This document shows positions 16,549-17,715 of a DNA stretch of 32,309 nt, piece by piece. The position numbers and the translations under genes are program-made. Source of the DNA: Treponema sp. (GTDB lineage: Bacteria; Spirochaetota; Spirochaetia; Treponematales; Breznakiellaceae); contig JAITAI010000016.1 in NCBI GenBank assembly GCA_031284195.1, forward strand, positions 1 through 32,309, given 5' to 3'. Under the pieces are notes generated by a model. The model saw only the letters and a program-made list of their open reading frames with translations, did not search any database and had not been told where the DNA came from. Position 1 is the first letter of the stretch, and every line of letters begins with the position of its first letter.

Positions 16549-16894
16549 CTTTCTTAACCATTCTCCTGTATTTTTATCGGTACAATGATGGAGGTTCTGT
16601 AGGGGGTCTTAAAACGACAAGGTGTCATCCTGTACCGGATAGAACTAAGGGACTTCTGGAGACTTAGAAAAAAACCTCGATTTCCCTCTCTAATGAGTAT
16701 TTCATGGAGAACAGCAAACCCGCATTAAAGACGGTATGACTTCAATATAATGCTGTTACCCTGAATGTATACACGGTATCTCCTTCAGCAGTAGAAGCGT
16801 ATTGACGACCGGTAAAGGGGTATCTATTTCTATCCGGGACGTATACGGTTTGGAGATACCGGTTCAGTAGGCTAAAAATACCCTCATCTGGTAG

Positions 16895-17113
16895 TTTGAA
16901 CCTTTTGAAGCCTGGACCGCGGTTCAGGGTATTCCTCGAAACCGGATCGTAGTAGCTGCATTTGGCTGTATGCAGGTGAATCCTGGAGCAGCAGTCTATC
17001 TGGAGGACTTGGTTGCATTGTTTAAGACCAGAGCTTACCATTGGGCCTTTTATTCCCTTCCAGGAAATATGGATAATTGGCTATTATCAAAAATCCTTCA
17101 TCTTCAGATCTAG
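16895..17113 (+). pseudogene. C-terminal remnant of a GH5-like glycoside hydrolase (cellulase family)
   Basis: start-less frame reads FEPFEAWTAVQGIPRNRIVVAAFGCMQVNPGAAVYLEDLVALFKTRAYHWAFYS..., close to GH5 C-termini; in-frame TAG just upstream. Confidence 0.5.
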
Positions 17114-17540: not shown

Positions 17541-17680
17541 TAAAAAATAAAACCCCCCGGGAAAAGGAGGTGAGGAAACCCGGGAGGCAAACTGATAATA
17601 CGGTTATTATTTAACTCAGATGCTAACAGCAAAACACTTTATGTCGGTGATGAAAAGGCACGTAATACCGTATCATCAGT
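17541..17680 (-). ncRNA. candidate small RNA (~140 nt) between luxS and acyP
   Basis: minus-strand TTGACC-N17-TAACTT (17715-17687), internal 11-bp stem and terminal CCTCCCGGG/CCCGGGGGG hairpin followed by T-rich tract. Confidence 0.45.
17542..17587 (-). terminator. rho-independent terminator
   Basis: CCTCCCGGG...CCCGGGGGG then TTTTATTTTTT on minus strand. Confidence 0.7.
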
Positions 17681-17686
17681 ACTTTT

Positions 17687-17715
17687 AAGTTACCCAAATT
17701 TCTCCATAGGGTCAA
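17687..17715 (-). promoter_or_regulatory. sigma70-type promoter
   Basis: TTGACC - 17 bp - TAACTT on minus strand. Confidence 0.45.

Follow-up and report, generated by a model that had tools for sequence, protein, structure and literature searches.

The use of unpaired, pyrimidine-rich loops to target translation starts is an established principle among bacterial small RNAs. In the alpha-r14 or cuckoo RNAs, which include NfeR1 of Sinorhizobium meliloti, highly variable stems carry an ultraconserved anti-Shine-Dalgarno (anti-SD) motif in unpaired loops; these RNAs act in trans, and the NfeR1 seeds pair at translation starts, thereby repressing the mRNAs (PMC10746234, PMC7143759). The sibling RNAs SisA-D of Caulobacter crescentus share a 10-mer with an anti-SD signature and repress many targets (PMC12559287). 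The seed of RepG in Helicobacter pylori is the C/U-rich loop of its terminator hairpin, which is sufficient for repression (PMC8295292), and sX13 of Xanthomonas pairs its C-rich loops with G-rich motifs near starts independently of Hfq (PMC3771888).

The element described here, found in a termite-gut-type Treponema, resembles NfeR1 and the other alpha-r14 RNAs in joining a variable stem to a constant anti-SD loop. However, those RNAs belong to alpha-proteobacteria and have three hairpins, each with CCUCCUCCC, whereas this spirochaete element has one anti-SD terminator loop with UUUCNUCACCUCCUUUU; with a single such loop (UCACCUCCUUUU) and no Rfam match, it was not assigned to the cuckoo family. 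Its putative seed lies in the terminator loop like that of RepG, and its position and fixed sequence are consistent with such a role, but RepG targets the variable G-repeat of one leader and its loop is no copy of the 16S anti-SD. An anti-SD signature is shared with SisA-D, but these have been studied as Hfq-associated RNAs, whereas Hfq went undetected in 40 relatives of the genome considered here. The 4C/5C loops of sX13 sit in three stems, include no anti-SD copy and come from an unrelated lineage.

No match was returned by Rfam 15 at the gathering threshold in the window (the whole 32,309-nucleotide stretch analysed), nor in the 16 related loci tested, and weak scores for LhrC, the shuA thermometer and the His-leader were judged to be chance. 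LhrC of Listeria (RF00616) also has CU-rich loops directed at SD regions; it is not the same family, the best score being 17.1 bits against a gathering cut-off of 110. A search for Hfq (PF17209) was negative in all 40 Treponema relatives, own genome included, a result that covers this order only and includes some incomplete MAGs; the complete genomes were also negative and the control genomes positive. An Hfq-dependent sRNA was therefore set aside. By analogy, the element would work like NfeR1/alpha-r14, SisA-D, sX13 and RepG, and it has no sequence kinship to any of them as far as tested. What is apparently undescribed is the RNA family itself, its near-invariant terminator loop, a copy from 16S rRNA, and its presence in spirochaetes that have no detectable Hfq. 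Neither Rfam nor the papers searched held an earlier description, most subscription papers lying outside that search, so that a prior report is possible.

The element lies between luxS (PF02664) and the acylphosphatase gene acyP (PF00708), on the same strand as both, and ends approximately 70 nt before acyP; a TrkH/TrkA pair is found on the far side of luxS. A sequence-only reading of this region had proposed a small RNA here, and its promoter, TTGACC-N17-TAACTT, is indeed present on the minus strand (17687..17715). This is a sigma-70-type promoter with the −35 TTGACC at 17715-17710, a 17-nt spacer and the −10 TAACTT at 17692-17687, which places the predicted start near 17680 and the predicted RNA of approximately 140 nt at 17541..17680 (minus strand). 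The perfect AAAAGGAGGTGA reported on the plus strand is there too, and the open reading frame list has no annotatable gene that begins at a distance from which it could be used. Since the element occurs once in its own genome and strong matches elsewhere are mostly single-copy, a mobile or repeat element was rejected. Beyond acyP, a stretch of approximately 460 bases reaching from its 3' side to the next gene (16655-17110) is absent in one close relative (L003) and partly present in another (L004, 82%); an open reading frame within it had no Pfam match.

Folding of the predicted RNA, a check proposed with the sequence-only reading, gave a minimum free energy of −42.4 kcal/mol against −26.55 ± 3.13 kcal/mol for 200 dinucleotide shuffles (z = −5.06), none of which reached the native value. 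The RNA is predicted to fold into two domains on the minus strand. In the first, the 5' arm ACUGAUGAUACGGUAUUA (17663..17680; genus column identity 97.8%) pairs with a 3' arm at 17591..17609, which also belongs to the consensus stem of relatives. The pairing and its one bulge had been foreseen at about 11 bp, which proved too short, as the stem has 18 bp. The region that it encloses (17610..17662; genus column identity 91.9%) is weakly structured and contains CAUCACCGACAUA, which is almost constant in the genus and recurs in a locus of another genus (L014), where CATCACCGACATACAAA is retained; this inner region is possibly a second pairing region. The second domain is the strong 3' hairpin that had been expected, with its 17-nt loop and T tract. 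This terminator (17552..17588) consists of a 10-bp GC stem (arms 17588-17579 and 17561-17552) and the anti-SD loop UUUCCUCACCUCCUUUU (17562..17578), followed by a U tract (17541..17551) whose T-rich run is kept in all family loci. The loop had been described as identical to the anti-SD tail of 16S rRNA. This holds for the 11 nt of UCACCUCCUUU, but not for all 12, since the 16S tail in two other family members reads GGCTGGATCACCTCCTTTCA.

Within the genus, no part of the region is better conserved than the RNA gene. When 40 relatives were searched at the DNA level, the full-length element was recovered in nine of the ten congeners at 87-97% identity, and only its terminator part in about a dozen other genera. 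Mean column identity across 10 same-genus loci reached 99.7% in the hairpin, 94% in the 5' domain and 90% in the promoter, with divergence on either side (67% immediately upstream, 51% immediately downstream, 72% at the luxS end and 61% at the acyP start). Divergence of promoter, stem and loop between well-kept flanking genes would have spoken against a small RNA; the opposite was seen.

A covariance model built on the terminator hairpin was searched in 150 genomes of the family and found it in 137 at E <= 0.1. The scores were bimodal, with about 106 of the 150 genomes at E < 1e-11 (a manual count of the table), mostly with one copy each. A pattern scan of named genomes yielded 67 true hairpins, all of them in records labelled Treponema, Spirochaetaceae, Spirochaetia, or as the species Breznakiella homolactica and Gracilinema caldarium; the remaining matches were missing either the stem or the terminator and were taken as chance. 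One MAG (L102) is labelled Treponema denticola, a label that may be misassigned. As the pattern scan demanded the loop core, loop invariance in those 67 loci is partly circular, and the unbiased support for loop constancy comes from the covariance-model matches. Among these, 20 of the weakest members were chosen without a loop pattern, and 19 had ACCUCCUUUU intact; a TTGAC/TANNNT promoter with a 17-nt spacer was likewise present in 19 of the 20. The pattern goes far beyond chance, because it is conserved across both genus and family.

Covariation in relatives, the other check proposed at the outset, supports the terminator stem. The 75 distinct rows obtained from 81 loci had standard pairing in 99.6% of pair cells, and five pairs showed double-sided changes in 44 cells, a number reached by none of 500 shuffles (2.1 ± 3.3); slid controls collapsed in the same test. 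By contrast with the stem, the loop is fixed, the family form being UUU[CU]NUCACCUCCUUUU with rare exceptions. In 75 of 80 family loci, a promoter of the form TTG[AC]C-N16-18-TANNNT was found no more than 180 nt upstream, and in 73 of these its spacer was 17 nt long; the frequency in control windows was 2.1%. The predicted RNAs of relatives are 60-190 nt long (63-189), with peaks near 84-92 and 137-153 nt. Their 5' domain is a hairpin of genus-variable sequence, the outer stem of which (CUGAUGAUACGG...CCGUAUUAUCAG) is kept in the Treponema genus of the window and in two neighbour genera. Covariation neither proves nor disproves this 5' stem, as the 12 pairs of its consensus show only one-sided changes (G-C/G-U, A-U/G-U).

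Gene context changes across the family. Both luxS and acyP stand beside the element throughout the genus and nowhere beyond it; luxS alone does so in two nearby genera (L012 and L014), and the other loci have neither. The element is thus a free-standing gene, and its own promoter, its own terminator and its changing context together argue for a trans-acting RNA. The features generally expected of an sRNA gene were found: a promoter of its own, an intrinsic terminator, a lack of coding capacity and conservation independent of neighbouring genes. Comparison of sequences thereby establishes the gene, its promoter, its structure, its fixed loop and its mobile context. The original small-RNA reading is supported, at the level of sequence, by persistence in the family without luxS and acyP, the dedicated promoter, stem covariation and the fixed anti-SD loop.

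We consider it probable that the element encodes an sRNA that acts in trans and, independently of Hfq, keeps ribosomes off its target mRNAs by pairing of the terminator loop with strong SD sequences; transcription, pairing, repression and the target set are what we infer from the comparison. A housekeeping-type promoter would give rise to an RNA of approximately 140 nt (60-190 nt in relatives), which would fold into two hairpins, one at the 5' end that varies between lineages and one that is the intrinsic terminator. In the large loop of the latter, UUUCNUCACCUCCUUUU would be exposed without a pairing partner, so that this copy of the 16S rRNA anti-SD could serve as the seed; Hfq would not be needed, since the stable loop would keep the seed accessible. 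This seed would pair in trans with mRNAs that have an unusually long SD (AAGGAGGU or longer), and covering of the SD would block 30S binding and lower translation. The 5' hairpin would protect the RNA and may contribute to target choice.

The use of SD sequences in these genomes bears on how selective such pairing could be. AGGAG was found at 18-22% of gene starts compared to 1-4% at control positions, AAGGAGG at 2-3% and AAAGGAGG at <0.5%, percentages that are lower bounds because gene starts were set by a simple longest-ORF rule. Since only a minority of starts have a long SD, a full anti-SD loop would favour few mRNAs and could discriminate by SD strength. The computed pairing with a strong SD is −14.1 kcal/mol for the loop and −13.8 kcal/mol for the 16S tail, and with the full complement it is −27.9 and −18.1 kcal/mol, respectively. 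Long perfect SD complements were rejected as targets: the full complement AAAGGAGGTGA occurs four times in the genome, the same as a reversed-pattern control, with one of the four being the element itself and the other three heading no obvious gene. In the genome of the element, 17 gene starts follow AAGGAGGT (G000 contigs, loci L291-L316), and these are candidate targets only. Judged by eye, they presumably include ketol-acid reductoisomerase-, glucose-1-phosphate adenylyltransferase-, aspartate decarboxylase-, carbamoyltransferase- and sulfhydrylase-like proteins and ABC transport proteins. The 17 genes have no single theme, forming a mixed metabolic and transport set that would be expected equally without an sRNA.

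That full SD complements are no commoner than the control would also fit a different role for a real RNA, in which the loop binds a protein or acts as a decoy for one, such as a ribosomal protein or a translation factor specific for the 16S 3' tail, and regulates by titrating it instead of by pairing with mRNAs. All but one or two of the 17 loop positions are constrained, including U-rich edges that are superfluous for SD pairing. We nevertheless regard a protein decoy as unlikely: no known protein of such a kind was identified, the known RNAs with such loops act by pairing with mRNAs, and sister RNAs have extra anti-SD stretches outside hairpins, which would suit base pairing better than a single shaped site. 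Within the trans-acting sRNA reading, the loop is constant beyond the needs of SD pairing (UUUC at the 5' side), and this extra conservation might reflect protein binding.

The identity of the seed with the 16S anti-SD over 11 nt, and a pairing with typical strong SDs that is as stable as that of 16S rRNA, could alternatively suggest an RNA that binds every SD-bearing mRNA in competition with 16S tails and tunes overall SD-dependent initiation, with no defined regulon. Such a global brake seems very improbable, as it would require ribosome-like abundance, whereas the gene is single-copy and its promoter is non-consensus. The position of the element between luxS and acyP, on their strand, approximately 70 nt before acyP and maintained genus-wide, could also point to a cis element, either a luxS terminator or an acyP leader or attenuator. 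This explanation has little left in its favour and is largely refuted, since beyond the genus the promoter and hairpin are kept without either neighbour (luxS being present in only two other loci), a strong terminator closes the element, and the stretch from there to acyP is the least conserved at 51%. Finally, a small protein such as MIRYY.PFHHRH..., starting near the RNA 5' end, is scarcely credible, for although several congeners have a frame of 17-23 codons that begins with an ATG four bases from the predicted start, this frame has no SD and is disrupted by indels not divisible by three between close relatives, and none like it exists in L011, L013 and others of further genera.

The trans-acting sRNA proposed here has possible counterparts elsewhere in the class. 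In other families, both of the order and of the class, the same search revealed additional terminators whose loops carry an anti-SD. A second RNA type combines a single-stranded AUUCCUCCUU with a terminator loop containing ...CUCCUUU..., and thus has two anti-SD stretches; it is preceded by a common upstream block, GTNAC(C)...TTGTT, and was seen at loci L204-L209, L213, L220, L223, L185, L189, L190, L196, L200, L324, L337 and L340. These include members of the Treponema genus of the window (L324, L337 and L340) and T. denticola-like genomes; no copy of the second type was detected in the incomplete genome to which the window belongs. The consensus structure of a second covariance model, R2, was poor, and this model served solely to locate members of the two-motif class. 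Three loci of the class Spirochaetia (L227, L228 and L229) have two successive hairpins, both with a ACCUCCUUU loop, and are very like the cuckoo RNAs of alpha-proteobacteria. It is possible, though rather doubtful at present, that RNAs mimicking the 16S tail, whether by one anti-SD terminator loop, two stretches or two hairpins, make up a network that controls translation globally and without Hfq throughout the Spirochaetia and sorts mRNAs by SD strength.

Riboregulation has hardly been studied in Treponema and its relatives, and this family-wide RNA offers a concrete handle on it: both the gene and the seed are defined, and two of the carriers, Breznakiella homolactica and Gracilinema caldarium, can be cultured. 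If the proposed mechanism is true, regulators with anti-SD loops, known so far in proteobacteria and Firmicutes, would also occur in a separate phylum without detected Hfq, and target selection by SD strength would become testable.
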